From assembly GCF_000687715.1 (NCBI RefSeq), contig NZ_JHXD01000012.1:1-64000 (forward strand): a DNA stretch of 64,000 bases, in the 5' to 3' direction. Within the stretch, counting starts at the first letter, position 1. Each line of letters begins with the position of its first letter. Source of the DNA: Xylanibacter ruminicola Ga6B6 (lineage in GTDB: Bacteria > Bacteroidota > Bacteroidia > Bacteroidales > Bacteroidaceae). A program made the position numbers and the translations under genes. Shown piece by piece: positions 31,275 through 47,918 of this stretch. The notes under the pieces are model-generated. The model was not told the origin of the DNA. It made no database searches and worked only from the letters and a program-made list of their open reading frames with translations.

Positions 31275-32618
31275 ATGAACGAAACGATTTGCGCACTCGC
31301 TACCGCCCCAGGCGGAGCAATAGGAATCATAAGAATCTCAGGTACTCAAACACTTGAGATTCTTTCTCGTGTATTTACCAAGAATCTCACACAAGCCCAG
31401 CCCAACACCATTCATTATGGACATATCAAGAACGGCGAAGAGATTGTCGACGAGGTTCTAGTGAGCGTATTCCGTGCTCCCCACTCTTATACGGGCGAAG
31501 AGAGCGCAGAGATTTCGTGTCACGGCTCACGTTATATCCTGAATAAGGTATTAGCATTGTTGATAGCCAACGGTTGTCGCCAGGCTGGTCCAGGCGAATT
31601 TACCCAGCGTGCCTACCTGAACGGCAAGATGGACCTCTCGCAGGCAGAAGCTGTAGCCGACCTGATAGCCTCAACCAATCAGGCCACCCACCAGATTGCA
31701 ATAAGTCAGCTACGTGGTCATTTTTCGTCAAAACTGGCACAGCTGCGCGAACAACTGCTCAAGCTCACCTCACTATTAGAGTTGGAGCTTGATTTCTCCG
31801 ACCACGAGGATCTGGAGTTTGCCGACCGCAGCGAGCTAATGGATATAACGAAAACGATTGACAACCACATCACCCGTTTGGCCAAAAGTTTCGAAACAGG
31901 CCAGACACTTAAGCAAGGCATCCCTGTGGCCATTGTGGGTAAAACCAACGTGGGTAAATCTACCCTTCTAAATCGCCTTCTAAAAGACGATCGCGCCATT
32001 GTGAGCGACATTCATGGTACCACCCGTGATACCATCGAGGACACCATCGACATTAATGGCATCACCTTCCGCTTTATCGATACTGCAGGTATCCGTCAGA
32101 CCCAGGACGAGGTAGAACAGATAGGTATTACCCGTACTTACGCTGCTATCGACAAGGCCCGCATCGTACTTTGGTTGATTGACACAGAACCTTCAACAAA
32201 AGAAATTAACGATATTACACAACGCACTGAAAACAAAAAACTTATCGTTATTAAAAACAAAGCAGACAAAACAGATAACAATAGTTACAATCTGTTAAAT
32301 CTTCCATTTATCACCATCAGTGCCAAGTTTGGTACCGGTATCGAGGAATTAGAGCAAGCCATCTACGAGGCAGCCAATATTCCTGCCCTGACAGAAAACG
32401 ATATCATTGTTACCAACGCTCGTCATTACGACGCTTTGGTGCGTGCGCACGACAGCATTCAACGTGTGATTGACGGTCTCCAGATGCAACTTAGCGGCGA
32501 CCTCCTGAGTGAAGATCTCCGCCAAGCCCTTGACACCCTCGCCGAAATCACCGGCGGCCAAATCACCCCCAACGAAGTTTTAGGAAATATCTTTAAAAAC
32601 TTCTGCGTGGGAAAGTAG
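31275..32618 (+). CDS. mnmE: tRNA modification GTPase MnmE
   Basis: This 447-residue protein has the N-terminal folate-binding domain, helical domain and inserted G domain: G1 GKTNVGKST (about 222), G3 DTAGIRQT, G4 NKADK. It ends FCVGK, with the catalytic-region Cys of the family. With MnmG it modifies U34 in tRNAs. Its last 18 bases, 32601-32618, recur at 47882-47899 and 47901-47918. The 3' end is a known insertion site for SGI1-type islands in other bacteria. Confidence 0.97.
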   Translation: MNETICALATAPGGAIGIIRISGTQTLEILSRVFTKNLTQAQPNTIHYGHIKNGEEIVDEVLVSVFRAPHSYTGEESAEISCHGSRYILNKVLALLIANGCRQAGPGEFTQRAYLNGKMDLSQAEAVADLIASTNQATHQIAISQLRGHFSSKLAQLREQLLKLTSLLELELDFSDHEDLEFADRSELMDITKTIDNHITRLAKSFETGQTLKQGIPVAIVGKTNVGKSTLLNRLLKDDRAIVSDIHGTTRDTIEDTIDINGITFRFIDTAGIRQTQDEVEQIGITRTYAAIDKARIVLWLIDTEPSTKEINDITQRTENKKLIVIKNKADKTDNNSYNLLNLPFITISAKFGTGIEELEQAIYEAANIPALTENDIIVTNARHYDALVRAHDSIQRVIDGLQMQLSGDLLSEDLRQALDTLAEITGGQITPNEVLGNIFKNFCVGK

Positions 32619-32621
32619 ATT
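32598..32621 (+). other. Candidate attachment site, left (attL-like)
   Basis: The core TTCTGCGTGGGAAAGTAG (32601-32618) is the mnmE 3' end. With three flanking bases on each side it matches 47879-47902 at 23 of 24 positions. This is direct observation; calling it an att site is inference from the duplication and from SGI1 knowledge. Confidence 0.7.
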
Positions 32622-32973
32622 ACGACTAATTGATACACAGGCTTTACATCGTTTTGTTAGAGTATTTTAACAAGTAAGTAAGAATTAATCAAGATTAAAT
32701 GTAATTACCTATAGGTCAGCAGATTAACACATTTGCTAATCAAGTTTTATTATTACATTCTGCATAAGATTTCGTCAGAAGTGATGGAAAAAACATTCAA
32801 AAATCTGCAAATATCTGAGACTCATTTTCAGGGTTGTTTACACCCCATATTTGCAGATGTTTGCAGATTCTAAAATCGCATCAATTCATAGAATGCTCTT
32901 AGCGATATTTGTTAAACAATTTAACAAAATAGTACGTCTGTGCCATTTTTTCGTGACACGGACGTTACCAATC
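32619..32973 (+). other. Non-coding left end of mnmE island
   Basis: This A+T-rich stretch has no gene. It holds three copies of TTTGCAGAT or its complement (32803-32811 minus, 32850-32858 and 32860-32868 plus) and an imperfect 16-base inverted repeat formed by 32802-32817 and 32854-32869. A stem (ACGTCTGTG with CACGGACGT, about 32932-32967) just before the flavodoxin stop could end minus-strand transcription, though its T-run is poor. Confidence 0.6.
32803..32868 (+). repeat. TTTGCAGAT cluster, left end
   Basis: One inverted and two direct copies in 66 bases. The 16-base word TTTGCAGATGTTTGCA at 32850-32865 occurs again, in the same direction, at 47726-47741 near the right end. Confidence 0.8.
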
Positions 32974-33525
32974 TTACAATCCTTTCACCCAAGTTTCTAA
33001 TTCCTTCTTGCTTGTCCTGTTCAGGAGTTTACCCTCCTTCCATGTTATATCAGGATAGGCAGCCTTCAAATCCTCGCAAGCCTTCTTAATACTGCTGCCG
33101 CCAGAGGTGGCGAAAGGAATAACGGTCTTGCCCTTGAAGTCGTAAGACTCCATAAAGGTGTTGATGATGGTCGGAGCGGTATACCACCAAATGGGGAAAC
33201 CAACATAGACCACATCATAGTCTTGCATATTCTTCAACTTATCGGTGATGGCAGGACGAGAGTTCTTGTCCTTCATTTCTACTGAAGAACGGCTTTGTTT
33301 GTCACGCCAATCGAGGTCTGCATCTGTGTATGGATATTCAGGCTTGATCTTATGCAAGTCAGCACCTACCACTGCTGCCAGTTGCTCAGCTACTCCCTTG
33401 GTCACACCAGATGCTGAGAAATAAGCTACTAATAAGTTCTTCATCTCTTTCTTTTCTTGTTTCTGCGCACAGGCCGTGAGGCTGAATGCCATTAATGCCG
33501 TGCAAATAACTGTAATCAGTTTCAT
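32974..33525 (-). CDS. Exported flavodoxin-like lipoprotein
   Basis: This 183-residue protein begins with a signal sequence and a lipobox-like LTACAQ (Cys near residue 19), followed by a flavodoxin fold: [20 protein letters not shown] (FMN phosphate loop, written here as a 20-residue motif), [17 protein letters not shown] with the flavin-stacking Trp, and [11 protein letters not shown]. Flavodoxin-type folds are normally cytosolic, so the signal is notable. It is the last gene of the seven-gene operon. Confidence 0.82.
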
Positions 33526-33537
33526 ATTGTCTTCTAT

Positions 33538-34572
33538 TTACTTGTTCTTTGCTGCCTTTACCCATACAGGCTCTTCACTCATGGCTGGCTTATTGACTGC
33601 CATCACACCTGAGAGGTTGTGGGGCACGTATGGCTCTTCTATATAGCGGATGTCATCGGCGGTCAGACGGACATCAAGCGACTTTACGGCACCTTCGATA
33701 TGGTGCAGCTTGGTGGCTCCCACAATGGGTGACTCCACCTTGGTCAGCAACCAGGCAAGGGAAATCTGAGTCATCTCCACATCATAGCGATTGGCCAGTT
33801 CCACTACGCGATTCACGATGCGGTTGTCCTGCTCAGCGGTGGCATCGTATTTGAAGTGCATGAACGAGTCTTCGGCCTGGCGCTTCGAGGTCTCACCTGG
33901 GCGCTTGGCCAGTTTGCCTGATGCCAGAGCGCTGTAGGGTGTCTGTGCGATGTTGTCTTCACGGCATAAGGGCTGCATCTCGCGCTCCTCCTCACGCATG
34001 ATCAGGTTGTAGTGGTTCTGCACACTGATAAATTTTGCCCAGTCGTGTTTCTCTGCCAGTGCATTCATCTTCGCCAACTGATAGGCATAGACGTTGGCGA
34101 TGCCGATGTAGCGTACTTTGCCTTGGCGCACGGCCTCATTCATGCCTTCAAGAATCTCCTCGGCAGGCGTCTTGTAGTCCCAGATGTGGTAGATGTACAA
34201 GTCCACATAGTCCATGCCGAGGTGCTGCAGGCTGCTGTCGATGTTGCTCAGTACATGCTGCCGACCATCGATGCCGTTCGTGATTTCCTCCTCTGTGCGA
34301 GGCAGGAACTTCGTGGCCACCACCACGTCTTCGCGGCGTGCCATATCCTTCAGCGCCCTGCCCACGAACTGCTCCGAAGTGCCCAGCTGATAGGCTATCG
34401 CCGTGTCGAAGAAGTTCACGCCGAGGTCGAGTGACCGACGAATGATTTCGCGTGTCGGCTCTTCGTCAATCGTCCACGAGTGCTGTCCGATACTGGCATC
34501 TCCAAAGCCCATGCAGCCGAGGCAAATGCGCGACACATTGAGGTCTGAGTTTCCAAGTTTTACGTATTCCAT
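33538..34572 (-). CDS. Aldo/keto reductase
   Basis: This 344-residue TIM-barrel enzyme has Asp and Tyr of the catalytic tetrad in NFFDTAIAYQLGTSE, Lys in VVATKF and His in LYIYHIWDY. The C-terminal LTKVESPIVGATKLHHIEG binds NADPH. It reduces aldehydes or ketones; the substrate is unknown. There is no signal peptide, so it acts in the cytosol, unlike several operon partners. It is in the same family as the gene at 38381-39316 but not a recent duplicate. Confidence 0.9.
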   Translation of the reverse strand: MEYVKLGNSDLNVSRICLGCMGFGDASIGQHSWTIDEEPTREIIRRSLDLGVNFFDTAIAYQLGTSEQFVGRALKDMARREDVVVATKFLPRTEEEITNGIDGRQHVLSNIDSSLQHLGMDYVDLYIYHIWDYKTPAEEILEGMNEAVRQGKVRYIGIANVYAYQLAKMNALAEKHDWAKFISVQNHYNLIMREEEREMQPLCREDNIAQTPYSALASGKLAKRPGETSKRQAEDSFMHFKYDATAEQDNRIVNRVVELANRYDVEMTQISLAWLLTKVESPIVGATKLHHIEGAVKSLDVRLTADDIRYIEEPYVPHNLSGVMAVNKPAMSEEPVWVKAAKNK

Positions 34573-34585
34573 ATTGTTGCTTAAG

Positions 34586-35152
34586 TTATTTCAAAGTTTC
34601 ACCATACGCCTTACCCATCTTCACGCAGTCACCAATAATGTCGCCTGTGCGCAGGTATTTATAGGTGGGCATCTCGAAAAGCACGGGTTTCAGTTTTGTG
34701 TAGTCAGGCTTTCCCTTCTCGTCGAGCATTGTTTCTTCGACGTAGGTATTGAGAATAGTGCAGATGTAGTTCTTAAAGCCGTCAATCTCGTATGTATCAA
34801 TGACCTCGCACTCCATTACCAGTGGCGATTGTTCGATGACGGGCATACCAGCCTCGCCCAGATGATAAGGCAGCACGCCCGACTTGTCCGTTTTTGCCCC
34901 GCTTACTGTTCCCGTATAGTCTGCAGCAGCCACAAACTGCTCGTCGATTATGTTCACCGACAGGCGTTTGGTCTCGTCGATGGCCTTGATGCTATGGTGT
35001 GAAGAATGGATGCTCAGCAGCATTTTCGAGTGGCTGACGATACCGATGTGAGCCACCAACAGCCAGTTTACTTTCCCTCCTTCTCCTATGGTTCCTACAA
35101 CCGTGGCTGGCGTGGGATAGAGAGCCAGTTTCTGTCCGATGTTCTGTTTCAT
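34586..35152 (-). CDS. Flavin reductase-like protein
   Basis: This 188-residue protein has the FMN-binding split-barrel pattern of flavin reductases: LYPTPATVVGTIGEGGKVNW, then LSIHSSHHSIKAIDETKRLSVNI, then the C-terminal MPTYKYLRTGD. The family reduces flavin or binds it as an electron carrier. The 13-base gap to the next gene supports co-transcription. It could supply reduced flavin to operon partners; inference. Confidence 0.83.
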   Translation of the reverse strand: MKQNIGQKLALYPTPATVVGTIGEGGKVNWLLVAHIGIVSHSKMLLSIHSSHHSIKAIDETKRLSVNIIDEQFVAAADYTGTVSGAKTDKSGVLPYHLGEAGMPVIEQSPLVMECEVIDTYEIDGFKNYICTILNTYVEETMLDEKGKPDYTKLKPVLFEMPTYKYLRTGDIIGDCVKMGKAYGETLK

Positions 35153-35161
35153 ATCATTCCT

Positions 35162-36166
35162 TTATTTCAGTTTGTTATACACTTCGTCAGTCACAGGCTC
35201 AAGCCACTCATTCGAGGCTCCTTCCTGAGCATCACGGTGATAAGTAAGGTGTTGGAACCATGAATCTTTTGCGGCTCCGTGCCAGTGTTTTACCTCTGCA
35301 GGAATGGCGATGACTATGCCAGGAGTCATCTCGACGGCATCCTTGCCCCATTCCTGATACCAGCCACGACCACTGACACAGATGAGTACTTGTACTGCTT
35401 TGTGGTGGATATGCCAGTTGTTACGGCAGCGAGGCTCGAAGGTAACGTTTATAACACCACCGCCAACGTCAGCCAGATAACTCCGACCGATGAAATACTT
35501 GCCGTAAGGGTTCGGTTCGCCTTTCGGCCATTTGCTACGCAAGGTATACCCCTCGCTGTCGAGCCAGGCACAGAGTTCATCAACCAGTTCCTGACTATTG
35601 CCCATGTTCACGGCTCCCTGCTTGTGGGCAGCCAGTTGTGGAGCAACACCTTCGAGACCACTCAGGGCAGCAACGGTCACTATCTCGCGGTCGGCAGCAG
35701 AGAGTTGGTCGCTGGCGAAGATGTCACCGAAGAGGTGCGACTTTAGATAGTAGTCATCCTGCGGACAGAAGTGGTAATCGAAAGAACGGCCAGAGAGTTT
35801 CGTCTGCACCTCTGTACCTTGCTTCAGAGCTTTTGCAGCGTCATCCCATATTTCAGGACGTTTCCAAGGCTTTCCTTCCTGCCATGAGGGCTGTTTGTTA
35901 TCCAACACCTTATTTAGAACGCCTAATGCATTCAGCGAGCGTGGAAAGCCCGTGTAGGCATAGAGCTGTGAAAAAGCCTCCTTCAGCTCATTGATAGTCA
36001 CGCCGTTGTCGAGTGCCATCTTCACAGCAGGCTCCAACCGTTCTAAATCACCCTGTGCCATCAGGCAGGCACATGCTGCCAATCCCTTTTGTCTTTCGGT
36101 CATCGTCTGACCTTGTATTGTCGCCATAGTCATTACTGCTATTATAAATGTTACTATTCTTTTCAT
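35162..36166 (-). CDS. Exported CMD-cupin fusion protein
   Basis: This 334-residue protein starts with a signal peptide (residues 1-19). Two carboxymuconolactone-decarboxylase-like halves follow (about 22-100, with ITINELKEAFSQLYAYTGFP; and about 130-195, with LSAADREIVTVAALSGLEG). The C-terminal cupin (about 225-310) has His residues HIHHKAVQ and VKHWHGAA that would bind metal. The classic CxxC of AhpD is absent, so a peroxidase role is unlikely. The same fusion is frequent in Bacteroidota operons with aldo/keto reductases and flavodoxins. Confidence 0.83.
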   Translation of the reverse strand: MKRIVTFIIAVMTMATIQGQTMTERQKGLAACACLMAQGDLERLEPAVKMALDNGVTINELKEAFSQLYAYTGFPRSLNALGVLNKVLDNKQPSWQEGKPWKRPEIWDDAAKALKQGTEVQTKLSGRSFDYHFCPQDDYYLKSHLFGDIFASDQLSAADREIVTVAALSGLEGVAPQLAAHKQGAVNMGNSQELVDELCAWLDSEGYTLRSKWPKGEPNPYGKYFIGRSYLADVGGGVINVTFEPRCRNNWHIHHKAVQVLICVSGRGWYQEWGKDAVEMTPGIVIAIPAEVKHWHGAAKDSWFQHLTYHRDAQEGASNEWLEPVTDEVYNKLK

Positions 36167-36229: not shown

Positions 36230-36970
36230 TCACTTAATCGCAACTTTTTTCCCATCTTTAATCACAATCCCCTTTTGTCCTACCAGAGCGAGAGTGCCCT
36301 GCAGCGTATAGACCTTTGACTTTTTTACGTCAGACTTAACATGGCTGATTCCTGTCGTAGATGAATGAAAGTTCTGTGTCGGCAGCCAGTTCTCAATCAG
36401 CGAATTGCGGTTGGAATGGTTGCTGGCATTAATCCCAAGCGCATCACCTGCCCATGTCACATTGGGGAGCAATCGCTGGGCATCTGCCACTACGCCGCTG
36501 ATACCACTCGAATGACTCGACACAATCATCGCCACCGTCTTGCCAGCCAATTTTGTTCTGTTCTGGAAGAGGAAGGTCTGCATAATAGCCGCCATCTGGC
36601 TCCACCAGAGCGGAGTCACGATGATGATATTTTGATAATCATCGATACTGACAGTCACGGGGTCGATGGCTGGATAACTGCTTGCATCGTTGGGATTCGC
36701 CTTAATGGCGTTCAGCAGTTGCGTACCCAAGGCATAGTTGTTCGCCTCATACCTAAGTCCTTTCTCTGCGGGTTGAATCTCCAATTGGTCAGCCGTAATC
36801 TGACTGGCAAGGCTGTTCACTATCGCCTTGCAGTTGCCCGTGTAGCTGTAATACACAATTAGCGTCTTGGCCATGTGGGCCTGATACTGATTTGTCTCTG
36901 CCTTCACCTCGCTGTCCGACGAACAGCAGGTCAGCAGCAAAGCTGTCATAAATAGTAAAAAAAGTCTCAT
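36230..36970 (-). CDS. Exported flavodoxin with Prevotella-style C-terminal tail
   Basis: This 246-residue protein has a lipoprotein-like signal (LLLTCCSSDSE, Cys near residue 15-16). The flavodoxin domain follows: TLIVYYSYTGNCKAIV (phosphate loop), IIIVTPLWWSQMAAIM (aromatic flavin contact) and VAMIVSSHSSG. After about residue 215 comes the tail KVYTLQGTLALVGQKGIVIK, then DGKKVAIK, a form seen at the ends of many exported Prevotella proteins. Signal plus tail argue that this protein leaves the cytosol, unusual for a flavodoxin. It is 10 bases downstream of the amidohydrolase gene. Confidence 0.82.
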   Translation of the reverse strand: MRLFLLFMTALLLTCCSSDSEVKAETNQYQAHMAKTLIVYYSYTGNCKAIVNSLASQITADQLEIQPAEKGLRYEANNYALGTQLLNAIKANPNDASSYPAIDPVTVSIDDYQNIIIVTPLWWSQMAAIMQTFLFQNRTKLAGKTVAMIVSSHSSGISGVVADAQRLLPNVTWAGDALGINASNHSNRNSLIENWLPTQNFHSSTTGISHVKSDVKKSKVYTLQGTLALVGQKGIVIKDGKKVAIK

Positions 36971-36980: not shown

Positions 36981-38327
36981 TTATTTAACTCTCTTGAAAA
37001 TTCTGCTCATCGTCTCAGTGGCGAGCGGTATGAGGTCTTGCAGTTTCAGTGACTTCACCATGTGGAGTGTGCCCTGCTTGTATTTCTGGAAGTGCGCGGT
37101 CTGGATGTGGTGCTGATAAGCCTGTTGCGAAGCGTAGATTTCAAGGATTCTTATTTGAGTGCTGTCCTCCTTCATCTGATTTGGGAAGAGACAGAGCACA
37201 CCGGGCTCTTCGGCCAAGCTCTTCTGCTGAATCTCTATTGCAGCAGTGAGATAGGCTTCGAGGTGTTCAGGATGTACTTCTATCTCGGCAATGCGAACGA
37301 GCATCGTATCTTTATGCTTTTTCGCTGTCGGTTTGTCGGAGGACAGTCCCAACAGCCATTCGGCATTCTTGTGGAGAATCATCTCGCGATACGCTGCAAG
37401 GTCTGGCTCAGTATTCAGGTACTGTTGCATGCGCTGGAGGCTCTGGGTGAGCACCTGCGGGGCGACGTAGGGATAGTCGGAACCATAGAGCAGATGGTCG
37501 GGCGTGGTGATGGTGAGCAACATGCGGATGACCTCTGGCGAGTGGGCACCGGCGAGGTCGTAGTAAAGGGCTGCGAGGTTGGCATCCCAGTCGATATCGC
37601 CCACGAGTTTATTAGCTTGCATCACGGGAGTTAGCGACTGCATGCGCGACACCATCAGCGGCAGATAGGCTCCGCAATGCGGCACTACCACCTTGACGTT
37701 GGGGTAGCGAGCCAGCACATTACGACTGATCATATTCGACACGGCACGGGTGGTCTCTGAGAGATATTCCTGCATGGCGAGGGGTGTCTGCTGCATCACC
37801 TGTTTGTTGACGGGGTCTGGACGATGTGGATGCAGGATGACGAATGCCTTACGTTCATTGAGGAACGAGAAGAGGGTGTCGAGTTCTGGGGCACCCAAAT
37901 ACTGACCATTGACGTTAGTGGCCAGTTTGATACCGTCGGCACTCAGTACATCCAGAGCATAGCGGGCTTCCTCGATGGCTGCATCTACATCGGGTAGTGG
38001 CAGAGCTGCACAGAAGCGGAATCTGTCAGGGTGCTCGTATTTCAGTTTGGCTGCTGCCTCGTTGGTGGCACGTACAACCTTCGCAGATGTCGGCTGAGGA
38101 GCCGCTAATGTCAAGACTGATGTATGAATACCCGCTTCGTCCATCCACTTTAGTTGCGCCTCTGCATCCCACTTCGGAAGAGGAAAGCCCTCGTCCAACA
38201 GCCTTCCCTCCTTGTCGAGGGCAGACATAAACTCAGGTGTGATGATATGCGAGTGCATATCAATCACGCCCTGAGCCTGCATCATCGTTGCAAACAGCGT
38301 TGCTATAATCGTTGTCCTTATTCTCAT
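36981..38327 (-). CDS. Amidohydrolase fused to ABM monooxygenase-like domain
   Basis: This 448-residue protein has a signal peptide (residues 1-19), then an amidohydrolase-2 barrel: metal-binding DMHSHI near residue 23, FVILHPHRPD, VVVPHCGAYLP and LLYGSDYPY. Such enzymes hydrolyse or decarboxylate ring acids. From about residue 345 an ABM/YgiN-like domain follows (MLVRIAEIEVHPEHLEAYL; AEEPGVLCLFPNQ), the fold of quinol and antibiotic-biosynthesis monooxygenases. The joining of the two in one exported protein is unusual. The region between the domains (about 335-344) is a short Lys-rich linker. Confidence 0.8.
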   Translation of the reverse strand: MRIRTTIIATLFATMMQAQGVIDMHSHIITPEFMSALDKEGRLLDEGFPLPKWDAEAQLKWMDEAGIHTSVLTLAAPQPTSAKVVRATNEAAAKLKYEHPDRFRFCAALPLPDVDAAIEEARYALDVLSADGIKLATNVNGQYLGAPELDTLFSFLNERKAFVILHPHRPDPVNKQVMQQTPLAMQEYLSETTRAVSNMISRNVLARYPNVKVVVPHCGAYLPLMVSRMQSLTPVMQANKLVGDIDWDANLAALYYDLAGAHSPEVIRMLLTITTPDHLLYGSDYPYVAPQVLTQSLQRMQQYLNTEPDLAAYREMILHKNAEWLLGLSSDKPTAKKHKDTMLVRIAEIEVHPEHLEAYLTAAIEIQQKSLAEEPGVLCLFPNQMKEDSTQIRILEIYASQQAYQHHIQTAHFQKYKQGTLHMVKSLKLQDLIPLATETMSRIFKRVK

Positions 38328-38380: not shown

Positions 38381-39316
38381 CTATTCCATTGAGTGTTCCC
38401 AACCTCCGCGAGTATCAATACCTGTAGCATCTGCGAGAGCTTCGAGGCGTGCAACTTCCTCTGAGGTCAACTGAATCTTAGCGGCCTCGGCAGCCTCGAT
38501 GACGTGACGCTCTTTGGTGGCTCCGATAATGGGCTGTGTTCCCTTGGCGATAGCCCAGGCGATGCCGATCTGCGAGCACGATGCACCGTACTTCTTACCG
38601 ATGGTGGTCATCTCATTAGTGAGGGCTTCAAGCTGTTCTAGCACGGGGTTATACTTCTTGCCTCGGTCGCTCTCTGCGGGCAACGGGTTCTCCTTATTAT
38701 ACTTACCAGAGAGTGCGCCCTGTTCCAGTACCATGTAGGCCCAGAACTCAATGCCGTTCTCCTTGCAGTAGTCCAGCACACCACCTTTCTCACTCGAACG
38801 GTAGAGCAGTGAGAAGTGGTTCTGCACGGCACTCACCTTAAAACCTGCCTCGCCCAGAATCTCGTTGGCACGACGTATCTCAGCGATGTTATGGTTCGAC
38901 ACGCCTACGCGCTTCACCTTGCCTGACTGCAGCAGGGGAATCAGTCCTGGTGTCCAACGCTCCACGTCCATCGGGTTGTGAATCCAATACATGTCGATAT
39001 AGTCGATGCCCATGCGATCAATTGAAGCGAGAGCCATTTTCTCAACGCTATTTTCATAAACCTCTGCCAGCTGCGGGGTAAACTTAGTTGAAACCTCCAC
39101 ATCCTCGCGCTTCTCGCCAGCCACAAACGAGCCAAGAATCTTCTCCGACTCGCCCATGCCATACACGGTAGCCGTGTCCCAGAGGTTTAGTCCGTTCTTC
39201 ATAGCCGCGTCGAATACGGGCTTCAAGTTCTCTACGTCGGTCTTGCTGCCGAATACTGCGTCTCCTCCAAATGCTCCTGCGCCCCAGGCCCAGGTTCCTA
39301 ATGCGATCTTTGCCAT
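38381..39316 (-). CDS. Aldo/keto reductase, first operon gene
   Basis: This 311-residue AKR has GLNLWDTATVYGMGESE (Asp, Tyr), VSTKF (Lys) and DMYWIHNPMD (His). The C-terminal IAWAIAKGTQPIIGATKERH is the NADPH site. It is preceded by a minus-strand promoter (TACCTTTG at 39353-39346) facing away from the AraC-type gene at 39467. It is the first gene of an operon that runs to 32974, so the regulator probably controls it. Confidence 0.9.
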   Translation of the reverse strand: MAKIALGTWAWGAGAFGGDAVFGSKTDVENLKPVFDAAMKNGLNLWDTATVYGMGESEKILGSFVAGEKREDVEVSTKFTPQLAEVYENSVEKMALASIDRMGIDYIDMYWIHNPMDVERWTPGLIPLLQSGKVKRVGVSNHNIAEIRRANEILGEAGFKVSAVQNHFSLLYRSSEKGGVLDYCKENGIEFWAYMVLEQGALSGKYNKENPLPAESDRGKKYNPVLEQLEALTNEMTTIGKKYGASCSQIGIAWAIAKGTQPIIGATKERHVIEAAEAAKIQLTSEEVARLEALADATGIDTRGGWEHSME

Positions 39317-39353: not shown

Positions 39354-39450
39354 CGGGGATTTTTGCAACTTCTGCCTAACTGATTTACTGATAAATCAAC
39401 CCAAATTACGGATTCTACCAATTTTACATCTTTGTCTCGCAAAAAATGTG

Positions 39451-39458
39451 TACCTTTG
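39451..39458 (+). promoter_or_regulatory. Promoter -7 box of AraC-type gene
   Basis: TACCTTTG only 8 bases before the start codon at 39467. If correct, the transcript would be nearly leaderless. Confidence 0.55.
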
Positions 39459-39466
39459 TACCCGAA

Positions 39467-40802: not shown

Positions 40803-41840
40803 TTATGAATTCTTTTTGTAGCTCTGTACGGCCCAACAACCCATCAGCGTACCGATGCCAGCAAGGGCTAAGACCTGATGGGCAGTTTCGTGCAGCCCAC
40901 CACCACGGATGAAGACGGTGCGGATGGCATCAATGAAGTAGTGCATGGGGTTGATATAGGTGGTCAGATAAGCCCACTGGGGCATGGATCGCGTAGGGGT
41001 GAAAAGTCCCGACAGCAACATGATGCTCACCACAAAGAACCACATCACGAACATGGCCTGCTGCATGGTGTCGGAGTAGTTGGACACGATGAGTCCGAAA
41101 GAAGAGAAGAACAGCGCCAGCAGCATAGCAAGCACGTAGATGAGCCACACGGGACCAGCAGGTGTGATGCCATAAACGAACCACGCCAACAACAAGCACA
41201 CGGTGATGACAAACAGCGCAATGAGCCAGTAAGGGATAAGTTTGGCGAGGATGAACGACCACTTGGAAACGGGCGTAACGTTGATCTGTTCGATGGTACC
41301 AGCCTCCTTCTCACCAACGATATTGAGTGTGGGCAGGAAGCCTGTCATCAGCATCATCACAATGGCAAAGAGGGCCGGAATCATGAAGAGTTTGTAGTTC
41401 TGTTGTTTATTGTAGAGGGTAAGCACGGAAGCGGCTGAGAGCGTTGAGACAGGAGCACTGACTATCTGCGAGAGATAGGCGCTGCCCATTGACCCCTTGG
41501 TGCCGTTGACGGCATTGGCTGCGATGAGATACTGGCCATCGCGAATCTCTAGAATAACATCAGCCCTACCCTTCTCGATATCCTTCATCGCCTCAGCATA
41601 GGTAGCCTTCTGTCCACCAAAAATAAAGTAGTTAGAGGCAGCAATTTTCTGTACTACCCGCTGCGACTCCATAGTATGGTCGATGTCAACCACATCAACC
41701 ACGATGTTCTTCACTTCCATCTGCATCACCCACGGCATCACGCACATGATGACAATTGGGAACATGACAATGAGTTTGGGCAGAAACGCATTACGACGTA
41801 TCTGCAGGAACTCTTTTTGTATGAGATATTTCAGTGTCAT
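40803..41840 (-). CDS. ABC-2 type permease, second subunit
   Basis: This 345-residue protein has one N-terminal transmembrane segment (about 22-40), a periplasmic loop (about 45-170) and five C-terminal transmembrane segments. The signature GEKEAGTIEQINVTPVSKW sits in the middle, as in ABC-2 exporter subunits of the YhhJ/YbhR type. It is the last gene of the efflux operon, beginning 5 bases after the previous stop. Confidence 0.9.
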   Translation of the reverse strand: MTLKYLIQKEFLQIRRNAFLPKLIVMFPIVIMCVMPWVMQMEVKNIVVDVVDIDHTMESQRVVQKIAASNYFIFGGQKATYAEAMKDIEKGRADVILEIRDGQYLIAANAVNGTKGSMGSAYLSQIVSAPVSTLSAASVLTLYNKQQNYKLFMIPALFAIVMMLMTGFLPTLNIVGEKEAGTIEQINVTPVSKWSFILAKLIPYWLIALFVITVCLLLAWFVYGITPAGPVWLIYVLAMLLALFFSSFGLIVSNYSDTMQQAMFVMWFFVVSIMLLSGLFTPTRSMPQWAYLTTYINPMHYFIDAIRTVFIRGGGLHETAHQVLALAGIGTLMGCWAVQSYKKNS

Positions 41841-41845: not shown

Positions 41846-42889
41846 TTACTCCAATCTTACATTAAACTTCTTCAGCGCTATGGCCAGCAGCACCACCGTT
41901 ATACCCGCCAGTACAGCTACCTCGTGAGCCACTTCGCCAATGCCCACGCCCATAATCATCAGCTTGCGCATAGCCTCGATATAATAACGTGGTGGAACCA
42001 CAGCAGATATCCATTGCAGAATCGTAGGCATCGATTCAACAGGAAACAGCATGCCCGACAACATGACCACAGGCATGAGTAACACCATAGCTGATAGCAG
42101 CAGGGCCACAAGTTGCGTCTGTGCCATGTTAGAGATGAGCAGTCCCAGCGAGAGCGCCAGCAGGATATAGAGGGTGCTCACAGCCAGAATCCAGAACAGC
42201 GAACCAGCCAAGGGTACTCCCAACACGAAACGTGCCATCAACAAGATGGTAATAAGGATGCCGAAGGCTAGTACCAGATAAGGCACTGCCTTAGCGATAA
42301 TCACCATCAAGGGGCGCACGGGCGATACCAACAGCACCTCCATAGTACCTTTCTCTTTCTCGCGCACGATGGATATCGAGGTCATCATGGCACAGATGAG
42401 CATCAACAACATACCCATGATGGCAGGCACGAAATTATAAGCAGACTTCATCTGGGGGTTGTATAACAGTTGAGAGTGAATCGTGGAAAGTGAAGAGTTG
42501 GCAATAGTCTGTCGGGCGTAGGTGGTCCATTGCTGCGCCATATTAGGGTCGCTGCCGTCAACCATCATCTGCACGCCACGACCCTGTGCAAACACCAGTG
42601 CCATATCGGCCTTTTGGCTGCGGATGAGCTGTTCGGCATCCTGCGGGGTATTCACCATCTGAGTGATAACGAAGTATTCCGATTGTGCCAGTCGTTCTAC
42701 AGCCTGCTGCGTACGGGGCGACATTTCAGAGGTGATTACCACCGTGCGCACATTCTTCACATCAGTGGTGATGGCGAAGCCGAAGAGCAGCATCATCACT
42801 ACGGGCATACCAAAGAGTATCAGCATCGTGCGCTTGTCACGCAGAATATGTTTGGTTTCCTTGATTACAAATGCTATAAACTGTTTCAT
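41846..42889 (-). CDS. ABC-2 type permease, first subunit
   Basis: The start chosen is ATG complementary to 42887-42889 (347 residues, MKQFIAFVIKETKHILRDKR); an upstream in-frame start at 42940 overlaps the ATPase gene and is less likely. The layout equals that of the following gene: an N-terminal segment, a periplasmic loop to about 175 and five transmembrane segments, with VREKEKGTMEVLLVSPVRPL as the ABC-2 signature. The two subunits should form a heterodimer. Confidence 0.9.
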   Translation of the reverse strand: MKQFIAFVIKETKHILRDKRTMLILFGMPVVMMLLFGFAITTDVKNVRTVVITSEMSPRTQQAVERLAQSEYFVITQMVNTPQDAEQLIRSQKADMALVFAQGRGVQMMVDGSDPNMAQQWTTYARQTIANSSLSTIHSQLLYNPQMKSAYNFVPAIMGMLLMLICAMMTSISIVREKEKGTMEVLLVSPVRPLMVIIAKAVPYLVLAFGILITILLMARFVLGVPLAGSLFWILAVSTLYILLALSLGLLISNMAQTQLVALLLSAMVLLMPVVMLSGMLFPVESMPTILQWISAVVPPRYYIEAMRKLMIMGVGIGEVAHEVAVLAGITVVLLAIALKKFNVRLE

Positions 42890-42893
42890 ACAC

Positions 42894-44354
42894 TTAATCG
42901 CTTGAACGGGTGGCCTGACGGGCCAGATAGGTAAACACATGGTCCATATCAGGTTGGTGGAAACGCTGTTTCAGTTCGTCGGGTGTACCTAGTGCACTGA
43001 TCTTGCCGTCCACCATGATTGAGATGCGGTCACAATACTCCGCCTCGTCCATATAATGGGTGGTCACAAAGACCGTGATGCCACGATGGGCTGCGTCGTA
43101 GATGAGCTTCCAGAACTGGCGGCGCGTAGCGGGATCAACACCACCCGTGGGTTCGTCGAGGAACACCACACCTGGGTCGTGGAATATCGAGACAGAGAAG
43201 GCCAGCTTCTGCTTCCAACCTAAGGGCAACGAACCCACCAAGTCATCGCGATGGTCTTCAAACTTCAACTGCCGCAGCACCTCGTCCATCTTACGCTTCA
43301 CCTCGTCGGGTTTCATGCCGTAGATACCAGCAAAGAGACGAATATTCTCGGCAACAGTCAAGTCTTCGTAGAGCGAGAACCGCTGCGACATATAACCGAT
43401 ATGCTTCTTTATCTGCTCATATTCCGTGCGGATGTCAAAGCCTACCACCCTACCCGTTCCGCTGGTGGGCTGGTTCAGGCCTGTCAGCATGTGCATAGCC
43501 GTCGTCTTGCCGGCACCGTTGGCACCCAGGAATCCGAATATCTCGCCCCTCTTTACACTGAACGAGATGTCGTCAACTGCATGGAAATCGCCAAAGGCTT
43601 TAACCAGATGTTCTACTTCGATGACGTTATCTTCTTTCACTTCTGCAATCTTCTCGTGTTCAATGCCTGACGGATTGAAGATACTGGCAAACTGGGTGAG
43701 AATATCATCGGGAGTACCAATGCCGCGCACCTTACCCTGATCCAGAAAAGCGACACGCTCACAGCAGCGCACTTCATCAAGATAAGGCGTTGAAGCCAAG
43801 ATAGTTATTCCCCGTTCCTTCAACAAGAGCAGCATCTCCCATAACTCCTTGCGGCTCACAGGATCGACACCCGTGGTGGGCTCGTCGAGGAAGAGTACAC
43901 TCGGCTGGTGTACCAATGCACATGAGAGCGCCAGCTTCTGCTTCATACCTCCCGAGAGAGCCCCTGCCTTACGGTCTTTGAAGCGTTCTATCTGCGAGTA
44001 GATGGCTTTGATGGAGTCGTAGCCTTCGTCAACAGTGGTGCCGAAAAGCGTGGCAAAGAAGTTCAAGTTCTCCTCGATAGTGAGATCCTGATAGAGCGAG
44101 AACTTGCCTGGCATATACCCTACCCGACTACGTACCTCACGCATCTGCTTCACCACATCGTGGCCATCTACCGCCGCCGTACCAGCATCAGGCAGCAACA
44201 GCGAACAGAGGATGCGAAACATCGACGTCTTGCCGGCTCCATCGGGGCCTATCAGTCCGAAGACCTCACCCTGGCCGACAGAAAACGACACATCGCTGAG
44301 CGCCAGCACCTTGCCGTACGATTTACTGATGTTCTTTACCTCTATTGCGTTCAT
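42894..44354 (-). CDS. Double ABC ATPase of efflux system
   Basis: This 486-residue protein has two ATP-binding domains in one chain: Walker A GPDGAGKTS (about 37) and GANGAGKTT (about 280), signature motifs LSGGMKQK and, in the second half, SLPLGWKQK (degenerate), and Walker B VLFLDEPTTGVDP and VVFLDEPTGGVDP. This plan is that of the YhiH/YbhF-type drug exporters that pair with two ABC-2 permeases and a HlyD. It overlaps the HlyD gene by 4 bases (ATGA). Confidence 0.93.
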   Translation of the reverse strand: MNAIEVKNISKSYGKVLALSDVSFSVGQGEVFGLIGPDGAGKTSMFRILCSLLLPDAGTAAVDGHDVVKQMREVRSRVGYMPGKFSLYQDLTIEENLNFFATLFGTTVDEGYDSIKAIYSQIERFKDRKAGALSGGMKQKLALSCALVHQPSVLFLDEPTTGVDPVSRKELWEMLLLLKERGITILASTPYLDEVRCCERVAFLDQGKVRGIGTPDDILTQFASIFNPSGIEHEKIAEVKEDNVIEVEHLVKAFGDFHAVDDISFSVKRGEIFGFLGANGAGKTTAMHMLTGLNQPTSGTGRVVGFDIRTEYEQIKKHIGYMSQRFSLYEDLTVAENIRLFAGIYGMKPDEVKRKMDEVLRQLKFEDHRDDLVGSLPLGWKQKLAFSVSIFHDPGVVFLDEPTGGVDPATRRQFWKLIYDAAHRGITVFVTTHYMDEAEYCDRISIMVDGKISALGTPDELKQRFHQPDMDHVFTYLARQATRSSD

Positions 44355-45241
44355 AGCTTCAGTTCGCCATACATACCAATCTTCACGAAACCGTCGTTTT
44401 TAATAGCCACCTTGACAGCATACACCAGGTCGGCACGTTCGTCATCAGTAAGGATAGTTTTGGGTGTAAACTCCGAACGAGACGATATCCAACTGATGGT
44501 GCCTGCATACTCTTTGCGTTGACCATCACCGTAGTCGGCAAACACCTTTACCTGTTGACCAATCTTGATGTTCTGCAACTGGGCAGAAGTGACGTAGGCA
44601 CGCAGGTGCATTGACTCAGTATCGGCTATCTTAAACAACGGTTTACCCACACTCACAAATTCACCACGCTCCACATATTTCTCGAGCACAGTACCCTTTG
44701 TGGGAGTCATGATGTGACACTTTCGTAACATATCCTGCAACTGTGCCTTCTGCACATCGGCAGCAGCCGTCTGCTTGTCGAGGGCTTGCGTGCTGGTGTT
44801 CAGCGATGATATCAGCGCATCCAGTTGCTTCTGCAGCACCTTCACCTGACTCGTGGCATCGTCGAGCATCTTCGAGGGAGCTGCCCCGTCAGCCACCAAC
44901 TCACGGTAGCGCTGCTCGTCTTGCTGAGCCTTAGCCAACTGCTGGCGCGTAGCTGCTATCTGGCGTTCCATATCGGGCTTCTGACTCTGATAAACCGCCT
45001 TCGTAGCATCCGTCTGCTGGATCTTCAGCCACGTCTGTGTGGTATCAATGAGTCCCACCTCTCGGGCTGCCTCCATCTTGTCGCCCTCGTTCACATCAAA
45101 CGACAGCAATGCCCCACTCTGTTCGGCAAACACGGTCGTCTCGGTAGCCTCGAACGTACCCGTTGCATCGTATTCTTTCTCGTTGTTTCCGCAGGCTGTC
45201 ATCATCAGCGCCACACCTGCCAATACATATATCTTTTTCAT
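44351..45241 (-). CDS. HlyD-family efflux adaptor lipoprotein
   Basis: This 296-residue protein has a signal with lipobox MMTACGNN (Cys near residue 17), a first lipoyl half (FAEQSGALLSFDVNEGD), a coiled-coil hairpin (about 70-175), a second lipoyl half (TPTKGTVLEKYVERGEFV) and a beta-barrel. It links the ABC permease to the TolC-type channel coded just before it. It overlaps the ATPase gene. Confidence 0.92.
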   Translation of the reverse strand: MKKIYVLAGVALMMTACGNNEKEYDATGTFEATETTVFAEQSGALLSFDVNEGDKMEAAREVGLIDTTQTWLKIQQTDATKAVYQSQKPDMERQIAATRQQLAKAQQDEQRYRELVADGAAPSKMLDDATSQVKVLQKQLDALISSLNTSTQALDKQTAAADVQKAQLQDMLRKCHIMTPTKGTVLEKYVERGEFVSVGKPLFKIADTESMHLRAYVTSAQLQNIKIGQQVKVFADYGDGQRKEYAGTISWISSRSEFTPKTILTDDERADLVYAVKVAIKNDGFVKIGMYGELKL

Positions 45242-45245
45242 ATGC

Positions 45246-46520
45246 TTAATTATTTGTCGTGTATTTGTTGTCGTATATCTCTTTCAGCATCTCTATCTCG
45301 TGCATGGATTGTTGCACACAAGCCGCATTCTCCTGATTAATCTCGCGCACTAAGTCGTTCACGTCGATGATGCCATGTGCCAGCTTCGATTCTGCCGCCT
45401 TTCTCACAGCCTGTCGCAGCGAGATAATCTCCCCGTCGTGAGCCATCAGTTTCTGGTAGCGCTCTATATTCTCGTTCTGCTGAATCTGTTCCAAGTTATT
45501 ATTGAAGAGGAACACCTCGCGACTGCTCTCCGTCATATCACGCTGCAACTGCAGTTTGGCCTTGTCGTTCTTGCGGGTATAGAGGGCACCGATAGTCCAT
45601 GTCACCCTTGCACCGACGAGGCCATTCAGGCTCCATTTGTGGCGCATCATGTCTTCGAACATATTCAGCCCCGGATAACCATAGAAGCCCTGTGCAAACA
45701 CACCCACCTTCGGCATCAGTGCTGCGTTGAGTGCCTTCTCCTGAGCATTCAGCACACTGATCTGTGCATCAAGCACCTTCAGTTCTGGTCTCTGGTTTCC
45801 TGTCGCCAGATTTCTGCCATCAGACTTCACTTGTGGCTTCTGTATGTTGTTGATCTCGATACCACAAAAAGTGCTCAGCATGCGTTGTAGCATCTGTTTC
45901 TGCGATACCAGCTCAGTGCCCTTCTGCACCGCATTCAGTCTCTCTGCCTTCACACTCTGCAGGTCGCTTTCGGCTGCTGTTCCGCGCTTGGTCATCGACT
46001 CCAGTTTGCGTTCGTTGCCTGCCAACAATGTCTGCAGGTCAGTGTTCAACTTGATTTGTTCGTCAATCAGCAACAGCCCGAAATACATCTCATTCACACG
46101 CTTGCGAACATTATAAATATTGACTTCGTTCTGTGCCGCCTGCACCTTGCCCTGTTCACGGGCTATACGCTTCTGACTGCCTATGACACCACCGTCGTAG
46201 ATAGTCTGCTGCACATCGATACCCACTCGGTACTGATCCTTCGTCAGTCCTCTCATGTCGATGCTCATACCGCTCATCATCGCTTTCATCTCACTGGGCC
46301 ACGCCGTCACATCACTCTGATACGTGGCCTGTGCCTGAGCCGACACTTGCGGTAGCCACCCCTTCTGGATGTTGGCAACCGTCAACTGGGTGGTCTTCTC
46401 GATGAGACCATACTGCTGTATCAACGGGTAATTCTTCTCAGCAGCCTGCTGACAATCGTCCAATGTCTGTCCCTGGGCCAGCATCGGCAACATTGTCAAA
46501 CTTAAAACTAATTTCTTCAT
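45246..46520 (-). CDS. TolC-family outer-membrane channel
   Basis: The start chosen is ATG complementary to 46518-46520 (424 residues, MKKLVLSLTMLPMLAQGQ), which begins a clean signal peptide; an upstream start at 46550 is in the promoter region. The sequence is mostly alpha-helical with two repeats, as in outer-membrane efflux proteins (TLDDCQQAAEKNYPLIQQYG; RVNEMYFGLLLIDEQIKLN; LGARVTWTIGALYT-like strand). With the HlyD and ABC genes it forms a complete tripartite efflux pump. It is the first gene of the operon. Confidence 0.9.
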   Translation of the reverse strand: MKKLVLSLTMLPMLAQGQTLDDCQQAAEKNYPLIQQYGLIEKTTQLTVANIQKGWLPQVSAQAQATYQSDVTAWPSEMKAMMSGMSIDMRGLTKDQYRVGIDVQQTIYDGGVIGSQKRIAREQGKVQAAQNEVNIYNVRKRVNEMYFGLLLIDEQIKLNTDLQTLLAGNERKLESMTKRGTAAESDLQSVKAERLNAVQKGTELVSQKQMLQRMLSTFCGIEINNIQKPQVKSDGRNLATGNQRPELKVLDAQISVLNAQEKALNAALMPKVGVFAQGFYGYPGLNMFEDMMRHKWSLNGLVGARVTWTIGALYTRKNDKAKLQLQRDMTESSREVFLFNNNLEQIQQNENIERYQKLMAHDGEIISLRQAVRKAAESKLAHGIIDVNDLVREINQENAACVQQSMHEIEMLKEIYDNKYTTNN

Positions 46521-46547
46521 ATTTTTATTGTCATTGAATTCTGGGTG

Positions 46548-46555
46548 CAAAAGTA
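46548..46555 (-). promoter_or_regulatory. Promoter -7 box of efflux operon
   Basis: TACTTTTG on the minus strand, 28 bases before the TolC-type gene. It is divergent from the promoter of the second AraC-type gene. Confidence 0.6.
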
Positions 46556-46652: not shown

Positions 46653-46660
46653 TATCTTTG
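46653..46660 (+). promoter_or_regulatory. Promoter -7 box of second AraC-type gene
   Basis: TATCTTTG, 19 bases before the start at 46679. The 97 bases between the two -7 boxes probably carry the operator of the efflux operon. Confidence 0.65.
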
Positions 46661-46678
46661 CCAACAAAAAAGGGACGT

Positions 46679-47587
46679 ATGATAAATAAACAACCGCAAC
46701 TCATGGACGTCACACGAATGCGTGACATCCTGATACCACACCTCTCGCAAATTCGCGAGCATATATTCATGAATAGTGAACTGGCAATGGTTCGCGGCGA
46801 CAGCACGGTGTTCAGTCTGCTGATGCGTCAAAAGCCACCTTTCACTATCAATGATCACCGTTTGGGCATCATCATGAACGGCGAGGCTGAAATTACCATC
46901 AACCTGCAAGACCGCCACCTCACGAGTGGCACACTCGTCTATATCGGTCCTGGCACCATCATCCACCCCCAACGGCTTTCCTCAGACCTCCGCATCTTCG
47001 GAATGGGACTTTTTTCAAACTTCCCCATGCCTTTTGCACAGGGACAGATGCCGTCGGTCTTCAACGGTCAGGTGCGCGACTTCCAGTTGTCCGCCAACGA
47101 AGAGGATATCGCTACCGCCACACATATTATGGACGCCATCTGGCAAACGGTTCATGCCACGGACGACTATCATCGTCCCACCGTCACAGCACTCGTAGCT
47201 GCCCAGATGCACCACTACGACCAGCTGTTCCATCGGCAGACTGACCAGCTGGCCAGCAGTCGTTCACGCGAACAGACCATCTTCGACCGCTTCCTCCAAC
47301 TGGTCACCCAGCATTGTGCTGAACAACACCAGATAGGCTACTATGCCGAGCGTATGTGCCTCACTGAGCGCTACCTGACCACTGTCATCCGTCAAACCAG
47401 CGGCACCACCGCCAAGGACTGGATAGACCGTGCCCTCATCACCCGCATTAAAATAGAACTGCGACACACAGACAAGCCGGCAGCGCAGATAGCCGATGAG
47501 ATGCACTTTGCAAATCCCTCGTTCTTCTCAAAATACTTCCGTCGCATTACAGGCATGACACCTGGGGAGTATAAATCTATCAGTTGA
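46679..47587 (+). CDS. AraC-family regulator of efflux operon
   Basis: The start chosen is ATG at 46679 (302 residues, MINKQPQLMDVTRMRDIL); a TTG at 46658 lies inside the promoter. An N-terminal cupin sensor domain (about 25-145, with LTSGTLVYIGPGTII) is followed by a C-terminal pair of helix-turn-helix units: IGYYAERMCLTERYLTTVIR and AAQIADEMHFANPSFFSKYF, then RRITGMTPGEYKS. It is divergent from, and probably controls, the tripartite efflux operon. It repeats the layout of the first module (39467). Confidence 0.9.
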   Translation: MINKQPQLMDVTRMRDILIPHLSQIREHIFMNSELAMVRGDSTVFSLLMRQKPPFTINDHRLGIIMNGEAEITINLQDRHLTSGTLVYIGPGTIIHPQRLSSDLRIFGMGLFSNFPMPFAQGQMPSVFNGQVRDFQLSANEEDIATATHIMDAIWQTVHATDDYHRPTVTALVAAQMHHYDQLFHRQTDQLASSRSREQTIFDRFLQLVTQHCAEQHQIGYYAERMCLTERYLTTVIRQTSGTTAKDWIDRALITRIKIELRHTDKPAAQIADEMHFANPSFFSKYFRRITGMTPGEYKSIS

Positions 47588-47725
47588 GTAAATTTTGTAT
47601 TGAAAAGCAAGTGTGACTCGCTTCGCCCAGAAAAGGCATAAATGAAGAAGTCGGAATAAGAACAATCCAGTAACAGATATATCTGCGTTAAAAAGTGTAA
47701 ACGTGCAAAGAACTGAAAAATCGAT

Positions 47726-47875
47726 TTTGCAGATGTTTGCATTTTCTTTTTTTGACGGCAGCTTCATTTGCAGATTTTTGTATATTTTACGTCCCTCCTC
47801 CGTCCCTCGGAGTCACTTTAGACACCCTAGAACAAAGGCATTTACATTGATTATCAGCCATTTATATTTGCAGAT
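47726..47875 (+). repeat. TTTGCAGAT cluster, right end
   Basis: Three direct copies at 47726-47734, 47767-47775 and 47867-47875, all on the plus strand. The first is part of the 16-base word shared with 32850-32865. Confidence 0.8.
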
Positions 47876-47881
47876 AGTAAC

Positions 47882-47899
47882 TTCTGCGTCGGAAAGTAG
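47882..47899 (+). other. Candidate attachment site, right copy 1
   Basis: TTCTGCGTCGGAAAGTAG differs from the mnmE end at one base (C for G). Flanking bases AAC and ATT are also shared with the left site. Confidence 0.7.
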
Positions 47900-47900
47900 A

Positions 47901-47918
47901 TTCTGCGTGGGCAAGTAA
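47901..47918 (+). other. Candidate attachment site, right copy 2
   Basis: TTCTGCGTGGGCAAGTAA differs from the mnmE end at two bases and still reads Phe-Cys-Val-Gly-Lys-stop. It is separated from copy 1 by a single A, so two sites lie in tandem. Confidence 0.7.

Follow-up and report, generated by a model that had tools for sequence, protein, structure and literature searches.

A probable decayed integrative element at the 3' end of mnmE in Xylanibacter ruminicola Ga6B6

We analyzed a stretch of 64,000 nt from Xylanibacter ruminicola Ga6B6 (positions 1–64,000 of contig NZ_JHXD01000012.1, hereafter the window); the whole genome comprises 3.47 Mb in 52 contigs. The window contains the mnmE gene (31275–32618, plus strand; MnmE_helical, TrmE_N and MMR_HSR1 domains), whose last codons (FCVGK and the stop codon) recur behind 15.3 kb of accessory genes. 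We conclude that these 15.3 kb very probably (we estimate the probability at about 0.9) represent a decayed integrative element with site-specific insertion, belonging to a tyrosine-recombinase family of Bacteroidota (type I) and located at the end of mnmE. A first-pass annotation of the same DNA had proposed an island with att-like repeats at this position in a Bacteroidales genome, and the repeat cores, the arms, the remnant of an integrase operon and an empty site in a relative all agree with this proposal.

Repeat cores, arms and cargo of the island

The 24-mer AACTTCTGCGTGGGAAAGTAGATT, consisting of the last bases of mnmE and the adjoining flank, occupies positions 32598–32621 on the plus strand (core 1, the left attachment core, attL). 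It recurs on the same strand at 47879–47902 (core 2, or core a, part of the right end) with 23 of 24 nucleotides identical, as the first-pass annotation had noticed. That annotation counted two copies and placed the end of the island at 47918; the repeat is real, but there are three copies, and 47918 is the end of the third one, TTCTGCGTGGGCAAGTAA (core 3, or core b; 47901–47918, plus strand), which follows core 2 at a distance of 19 bases. All three cores were defined by the repeat itself and by a pattern search of the genome. In the 3.47 Mb, only the three cores of the window match the pattern TTCTGCGTNGGNAAGTA perfectly; five more sites each need two mismatches. If equal base frequencies are assumed, about 3e-8 additional 24-mers differing from the mnmE end by no more than one mismatch are expected in 64 kb. 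When up to three mismatches to a 17-base core pattern were allowed, the window gave four matches against 1.6 expected, the only one outside the three cores being at 46539. Since nine of 100 shuffled sequences also reached four, loose matches mean little and only the exact ones count.

The cores are accompanied by arms at both ends. The left arm (32619–32889, plus strand) was recognized by alignment to type-I left arms and contains sites of the TTTGCAGAT type at 32803 (inverse), 32850 and 32860. The right arm (47680–47881, plus strand), recognized by alignment and by site spacing, contains TTTGCAGAT at 47726, 47767 and 47867. For comparison we used mnmE with its flanks from genome contigs (n = 80 loci, the best 80 of more) and a survey of 200 genomes of the genus, our strain and many incomplete genomes included; mnmE positions and MnmE identities in this survey were taken from among the matches listed. 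Two loci (L043 and L088) are the records of genomes G213 and G241, respectively, and were each counted once. Positions 32653–32889 of the left arm align to +39 to +241 after mnmE in locus L081, and similarly in G245, G203 and G051. The right arm with its core is 86–92% identical over 222–239 bp to sequences of G245, G044, G031, G213 and G008. As a query it matches 46 of the 200 genomes, our own included, and the match covers at least 65 bases in 25 of the 199 others.

The 9-mer TTTGCAGAT was chosen after the arms had been seen, and its background, the other left-end families and the distances between copies served as controls. Counted on both strands, the window contains six copies of this motif, all of them in the arms (three per arm). 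Its background to the left of the mnmE end is five copies in 817,766 bases of the 80 loci. Among 19 other right ends, seven have all three copies at about 15, 115 and 156 bases from the core, seven have two, and five have fewer or displaced copies (none in G055). At the left ends, one to three copies were found within the first 250 bases or less in every locus of families I and III (the families are described below) and none in the same region of the other families. Judging from these patterns, both ends of the island have arms of the tyrosine-recombinase type, and the attL and attR sequences are present as a core with three candidate arm sites at each end.

Between cores 1 and 2 there are 14 protein genes forming two modules with one AraC-type regulator each. 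None of them is a core gene, which agrees with the first-pass description of two accessory modules. In broad terms, the cargo comprises a pump and enzymes of a detoxification-like kind. The redox module begins with a flavodoxin gene on the minus strand (Flavodoxin_4 by Pfam, 32974–33525). According to domain searches, it is followed on the same strand by genes for aldo/keto reductase 1 (33538–34572), a flavin-reductase-like protein (34586–35152), a carboxymuconolactone decarboxylase-like protein with a cupin (35162–36166), a second flavodoxin-like protein (36230–36970), an amidohydrolase (Amidohydro_2) fused to an ABM domain (36981–38327) and aldo/keto reductase 2 (38381–39316), and on the plus strand by AraC-type regulator 1 (39446–40360). 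The efflux module, also annotated by domain searches, contains on the minus strand ABC-2 permeases 1 (40803–41840) and 2 (41846–42940), an ABC transporter ATPase with two nucleotide-binding domains (42894–44354), an HlyD-type adaptor (44351–45241) and a TolC-type outer-membrane efflux protein (45246–46550), and on the plus strand AraC-type regulator 2 (46658–47587). Pfam revealed no relaxase or conjugation family among the 14 genes, and a six-frame profile search revealed no recombinase in the island. There is no tRNA gene between the cores, and tRNA genes mark no boundary of the island.

The cargo appears to have moved between species, as judged from sequence identities. The efflux genes are 86.6–97.5% identical at the DNA level to those of Prevotella sp. 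khp7 (L064), in which mnmE is 76.6% identical over the alignable 903 bases. The corresponding values for the closer X. ruminicola D31d, which has the nearest mnmE among the 80 loci (97% identity of the protein), are 80.9–91.2% for the efflux genes and 92% for mnmE and uraA. The HlyD gene was detected at E 1e-90 in 96 of the 200 genomes. At 89% identity or more, it has 12 matches in other genomes, two of them partial; four are on the mnmE contig, 4–140 kb downstream of the gene (G241, G133, G177 and G245), and eight are on other contigs. Thus, the efflux module is frequent at mnmE and not exclusive to it. For one of the latter eight, on a 546 kb contig of G227, the surrounding 16 kb that were retrieved contain no core. 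The redox genes are 94–100% identical in G217 (L255) and G155 (L254), whose MnmE proteins are 68–72% identical to that of the window; no core was found in the 18.9 and 4.1 kb fetched, respectively. Judging by these two genomes, the redox gene cluster has spread recently.

Remnant of the integrase operon and its intact relatives

The first-pass annotation had stated that no integrase was visible. Indeed there is no intact gene, but a deletion scar at 40403–40653, between the two modules, had been overlooked. Its first part (40403–40593, plus strand) comprises the promoter region and the first ~49 codons of a type-I helix-turn-helix (HTH) gene of the HTH_17 family. It aligns to +228 to +418 of L081 with 86% identity of DNA over 190 bp and 71% identity of protein over 49 residues. 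The second part (40591–40653, plus strand) comprises the last ~20 codons of a type-I tyrosine recombinase, with 86–89% DNA identity to the 3' end of the integrase gene in L081 and G245 and 84% amino acid identity over the last 19 residues. The two parts are fused directly, and about 1.5 kb has been lost between them. This remnant of an integrase operon bears out the earlier suggestion that the island is decayed. It also argues against the possibility that the window island was a cassette that had never been autonomous.

The scar is located 7.8 kb from the left end, whereas in relatives the intact gene adjoins the same core. The block of similarity that includes the left arm ends at +241 of L081, and the block that includes the scar starts at +228. 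The two are therefore contiguous in an intact element, and in the window the redox module of 7.5 kb has come to lie between the arm and the HTH gene. Neither a core nor a relic of an arm was seen between the modules when positions 40321–40920 were read by eye.

The deletion junction is shared with genome G245, which belongs to a different species (MnmE 66% identical at the amino acid level). The shared stretch runs from the scar through the efflux module and is 86% identical over 7,197 bases. Since both copies have the same junction, the deletion predates their separation. Besides G245, the scar was found in no other efflux locus whose upstream side was read.

To describe related elements, we clustered the left ends of 78 of the 80 loci (L057 and L109, whose contigs do not extend past the mnmE stop codon, were left out). 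In total, 55 loci fell into nine left-end families, each common to at least two loci and often spanning species whose MnmE is only 65–80% identical to that of the window. What the members of two of the nine families have in common is the beginning of cargo genes and not an arm. Several families have, reading away from mnmE, an HTH gene followed by a tyrosine recombinase gene, or a recombinase gene alone. These recombinases contain the PF00589 and Phage_int_SAM_5 domains, and most of those scanned also contain Arm-DNA-bind_5; the R, HxxR and Y motifs are visible in the type-I sequence. Intact HTH–integrase pairs directly after mnmE were found in L081, G051 (94%) and G203 (99%), and integrases beside the same repeats, which the first-pass annotation had recommended looking for, therefore do exist in related genomes.

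Relatives of the type-I recombinase with E values of 1e-60 or better were detected in 46 of the 200 genomes; in at least 17 of these the gene is oriented like mnmE and begins or lies at a distance of 0.9 to 2.1 kb downstream. Only four of the 200 genomes contain a type-I recombinase when at least 80% identity is required. Our own genome contains no close type-I recombinase, its three matches being only 24–30% identical. Eight aligned recombinases formed three groups, in which types I and II are 47%, A and F 52%, and III and X 57% identical; identity between the groups is 28–37%.

These observations are consistent with the following scheme. The element would integrate within the terminal 18 bases of mnmE and contribute the codons from which the end of the gene is rebuilt. 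Like integrases of the lambda type, the recombinase would bind the TTTGCAGAT copies as arm sites together with the core and exchange strands within the core. The backbone can be read as core 1, the left arm, the beginning of the HTH gene, the final part of the recombinase gene, the efflux cargo, the right arm and cores 2 and 3. In the simplest scenario, a type-I element with efflux cargo would have taken up the 7.5 kb redox module between its left arm and the HTH gene and, before or after this event, would have lost nearly all of the HTH and recombinase genes by the ~1.5 kb deletion. Such an element is presumably no longer self-mobile; with both ends kept it could be moved by an incoming recombinase, as a cis-mobilizable element (CIME). 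The first-pass annotation had also mentioned mobilisation in trans, and for the island at present this is possible but unproven.

Tandem arrays, related sites and competing explanations

The window island is the first unit of a short tandem array, and behind core 3 there is the remnant of a second element. This remnant is the left arm of a type-II element (47942–48135, plus strand), 86–87% identical to the left arms located after mnmE in L040 and L061; the type-II recombinase itself was seen in L040. Neither a gene for the type-II HTH protein or recombinase (HTH_II/INT_II) nor a scar of one was found in 47918–49156. A piece of the same left arm (89% identity over 70 bases) is present in D31d in the same place, after the first element. 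A small open reading frame of 188 aa (48557–49123, plus strand), next to the uraA-like gene, has no Pfam match and was not found at the corresponding site of the relative RUG295; it is probably a rest or cargo of the second element.

Tandem organization was also observed in relatives. In G245, a nearly closed genome of two contigs, mnmE is followed by a core, a type-III recombinase gene, about 95 kb of other sequence, two cores and an intact type-I element of 10 kb. Further on there are three cores, a 4.85 kb GIY-YIG unit, another two cores, a unit of 14.9 kb and, at +125 kb, an exact core. The unit with the scar and the efflux module comes next, and after it a degenerate core (+148 kb) and redox genes. 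The ~95 kb stretch (L226–L230, G245:C1:850100-931999; L176) has the type-III recombinase at its start, before the first cassette, and its size suggests a conjugative element. The starting point of the GIY-YIG unit relative to the core is identical to the base in G245, G170 and L056 (97% identity over 1.5–1.9 kb).

A second core lies 19 bases after the first at 22 of the 24 right ends that could be read with a core (G020, one right end of G248 and G203, which have no readable core, are left out). One of the two cores is degenerate in three of these 22 (the last right end of G245 and those of G148 and G177), and G008 and G248 have a single core. Tandem cores are also located directly behind mnmE in L064, L075, L085, L094, L096 and G051. 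Longer runs with the 19-base spacing comprise four cores at G158:C5:527-600 (L190) and three at G245:C1:955206-955260 (L177). The tandem cores may be footprints of excision, and the runs in G158 and G245 are perhaps a record of repeated excision.

To assess how often such units have their own recombinase, we considered 17 stretches reaching from a core or left arm to a right arm, that of the window included; five unbounded stretches were not counted. It should be mentioned that G044 lacks an exact left core and G248 an exact right core, that the right arm of G203 is cut by a contig end, and that stretch G019_a probably consists of two units. A six-frame profile search revealed a recombinase in two of the 17. 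Besides these two, a search for the HTH gene found only the scar of the window.

We compared 20 array proteins, including two from L101, which is not among the 17 stretches, with defence families. Nine gave matches, some of them weak, and eleven gave none. The matches include AbiEi, AbiEii, GmrSD-like, PifA-like and Fic-like proteins, and Pfam adds a glycosidase-like protein to the array cargo. Units with genes of the defence type, a ResIII-type helicase among them, were seen in the mnmE arrays of L137 (D31d), L181 (G044), L239 (G148) and L240 (G177). In this genus, mnmE has the appearance of a site for defence islands.

In our tentative view, which we consider less probable than not, the mnmE 3' end anchors arrays in Xylanibacter and Prevotella in which a few autonomous HTH–recombinase elements move many recombinase-less cassettes in trans; the window would hold one such array, with one cassette frozen by the loss of its recombinase. 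Such cassettes would carry defence, glycosidase-like, efflux and redox cargo and share arm sites with these elements. If excision used now one and now the other of the two cores at a right end, units of 19 bases would remain behind mnmE, and past residents could be counted from them.

A related explanation for the window itself is that the island was spread as a unit without its own recombinase, moved through the shared arms by the type-I recombinase of other elements. We regard this as a serious minority possibility. It would account for the deletion junction occurring in another species, within 7.2 kb at 86% identity, and for the 15 of 17 stretches that have no recombinase. It also fits the wide distribution of the right arm (at least 65 bases in 25 of 199 genomes) as compared with the four of 200 genomes with a type-I recombinase at 80% identity or more. 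However, neither a core nor a left arm was found directly to the left of the unit of G245, nor a right arm after it, and homologous recombination or transfer as part of a larger element could have distributed the shared junction. Moreover, the scar was found in only one other genome, with many genomes being incomplete, and the Ga6B6 genome has no close type-I recombinase.

A uraA-like permease gene (49156–50487, minus strand) is probably the old right-hand neighbour of mnmE, since the two adjoin in RUG295 (L033). There only 7 bases separate their stop codons, that is, the site is empty, and uraA is followed by an ABC-F gene, in the same order as on the far side of the window island. Thus, an empty site, as anticipated by the first-pass annotation, exists in another species. 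The same annotation would have been contradicted by the same 15 kb in all relatives, and RUG295, D31d, P6B1 and SIG140 all differ from the window. In the latter three, uraA is on the same contig as mnmE at a distance of 41.4, 56.5 and 55.7 kb, respectively; uraA is not adjacent to mnmE in every relative, P. communis being an exception. No relatives of the cargo modules were detected between mnmE and uraA in P6B1 and RUG295.

The distribution of the two modules raises the possibility that two tandem islands, one with the redox genes and the other with the efflux genes and its own integrase, were fused when the intervening ends were lost. In favour of this, there is a separate AraC regulator for each module. 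In L064, G001 and D31d (where the core is degenerate) the efflux module, with no redox module directly before it, lies flush against a core and ends one or two bases from it. Conversely, redox genes adjoin mnmE without efflux genes in 5.9 kb of L070 and occupy the first 5 kb after mnmE in SIG140, where the efflux genes follow 43 kb further on. Nevertheless, we consider the fusion unlikely. Neither a core nor an arm relic was seen between the modules on reading positions 40321–40920 by eye, the other loose core match being only that at 46539, and the abutment of the left arm and the HTH gene in the intact element is explained more simply by one inserted module.

Several observations weigh against a single imported element and should be set beside the 0.9 given above. 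The guanine-plus-cytosine content of the island is like that of its flanks, and base composition therefore indicates no boundary. The left arm is only partly similar to its relatives (85.7% over 70 bp, with gaps elsewhere). RUG295 is a metagenome-assembled genome with an mnmE 83% identical at the DNA level, and since it is another species, the empty site holds for a relative and not for a sister strain. Both cargo modules are also found outside the mnmE arrays in the genus. In D31d and SIG140, genes related to the efflux module and to several members of the redox module lie between mnmE and uraA in other places, the redox genes of D31d in the opposite orientation. Therefore, such cargo may, in this clade, be an old resident of the mnmE–uraA interval, reshuffled as well as imported. 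Finally, neither an unintegrated or circular form nor attP was found in viral contigs (0 matches) or in plasmids; the viral contigs contain only ten loci with recombinase relatives, 31–39% identical.

A chance repeat in an ordinary variable intergenic region with native modules, which would suit the base composition, the abundance of the modules in the genus and their relatives in the same interval of D31d and SIG140, is extremely improbable and was rejected in view of the three cores unique in the genome, the six arm sites confined to the two ends, the integrase scar and the empty and differently filled sites of relatives.

Comparison with known systems and the end of mnmE

Integron arrays consist of serial cassettes at a fixed site, most of which have no recombinase and each of which ends in a similar recombination site. 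Unlike integrons, the mnmE arrays are composed of units of several kilobases with their own regulators and with ends resembling lambda-type att sites with arms. The type-I recombinase scored 60.6 bits against the integron-integrase model, below its cut-off of 265, and the mnmE arrays are not counted among integron arrays; attC structures were not searched for.

SGI1 (Salmonella genomic island 1) of Gammaproteobacteria is an integrative mobilizable element that is reported to depend on IncA/C plasmids and has a backbone with int/xis and mobilisation genes. It is described as integrating into the last 18 bases of trmE/thdF (= mnmE; PMC2297512) and as forming tandem arrays. The window island is like SGI1 in its site, the last 18 bases of mnmE, and differs in that Pfam revealed no SGI1-type gene among its 14 genes; no direct comparison with the SGI1 sequence was made. 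Thus, of the SGI1-type site proposed in the first-pass annotation, the same coding end of mnmE is confirmed, but the link is one of analogy only, with recombinases that belong to Bacteroidota groups.

Islands downstream of ssrA in Dehalococcoides resemble the mnmE arrays in their organization. They are arranged in tandem downstream of a conserved gene, each bounded by a 20-base direct repeat of the gene end; sixteen have an integration module and fifteen do not, the latter being proposed as possible cis-mobilizable elements, and cargo and integration module differ in history (PMC3146451). Both systems thus have tandem units at one gene end, integrase-less units included. The target there is the tmRNA gene and the enzyme a serine recombinase of the CcrB kind (PMC3146451), whereas here the target is mnmE and the enzymes are tyrosine recombinases of Bacteroidota.

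CIMEs related to ICESt1, an integrative and conjugative element (ICE) of streptococci, are reported to have lost the integration genes and kept attL and attR beside an element at the same site, and CIME–ICE tandem transfer was described (PMC5704250). The window island resembles them in the loss of integration genes, the retention of both ends and the presence of another element next to it. Unlike the active partner in CIME co-mobilisation, the neighbouring type-II element of the window is itself a remnant.

In the papers found by our literature searches, on SGI1-type trmE islands of Gammaproteobacteria and on tandem accretion, titles and abstract openings contained no mnmE island of Bacteroidota, subscription journals being mostly outside this scope. 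The main texts of two papers on mobile elements of Bacteroidota, PMC4755523 (Prevotella intermedia) and PMC6907783 (gut), do not mention mnmE, trmE or thdF. Our data indicate that mnmE is a heavily used integration site in abundant rumen Bacteroidota and not only the site of SGI1 in Gammaproteobacteria, and that at least three recombinase groups, 28–37% identical to each other, serve it. The 18-base core and the candidate arm sites may allow prediction of where accessory genes for defence, efflux and glycosidases come and go in Prevotella and Xylanibacter. In our judgement, the recombinases could become tools for site-specific integration in a group for which genetic tools are scarce.

The end of mnmE itself varies among relatives. 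Last codons were counted in 77 of the 80 loci (L057, L109 and L059, which has an odd mnmE end, were left out). In total, 70 of the 77 genes end in FCVGK, and FCIGK was found at the empty site and in six others. FCVGK is the end in 53 of the 55 loci with a known left-end family; among the remaining 22, RUG295 and four more have FCIGK. The Cys codon is TGC in all 70 V-ended and in four of the seven I-ended genes. Integration may rewrite the final codons of mnmE together with its stop codon, and common descent could also have caused this pattern. On the other side of the gene, a 14-base unit, AAAGCTCAAAGTTC, is present in three tandem copies at 31232–31275, between a nucleoside phosphorylase gene and mnmE.

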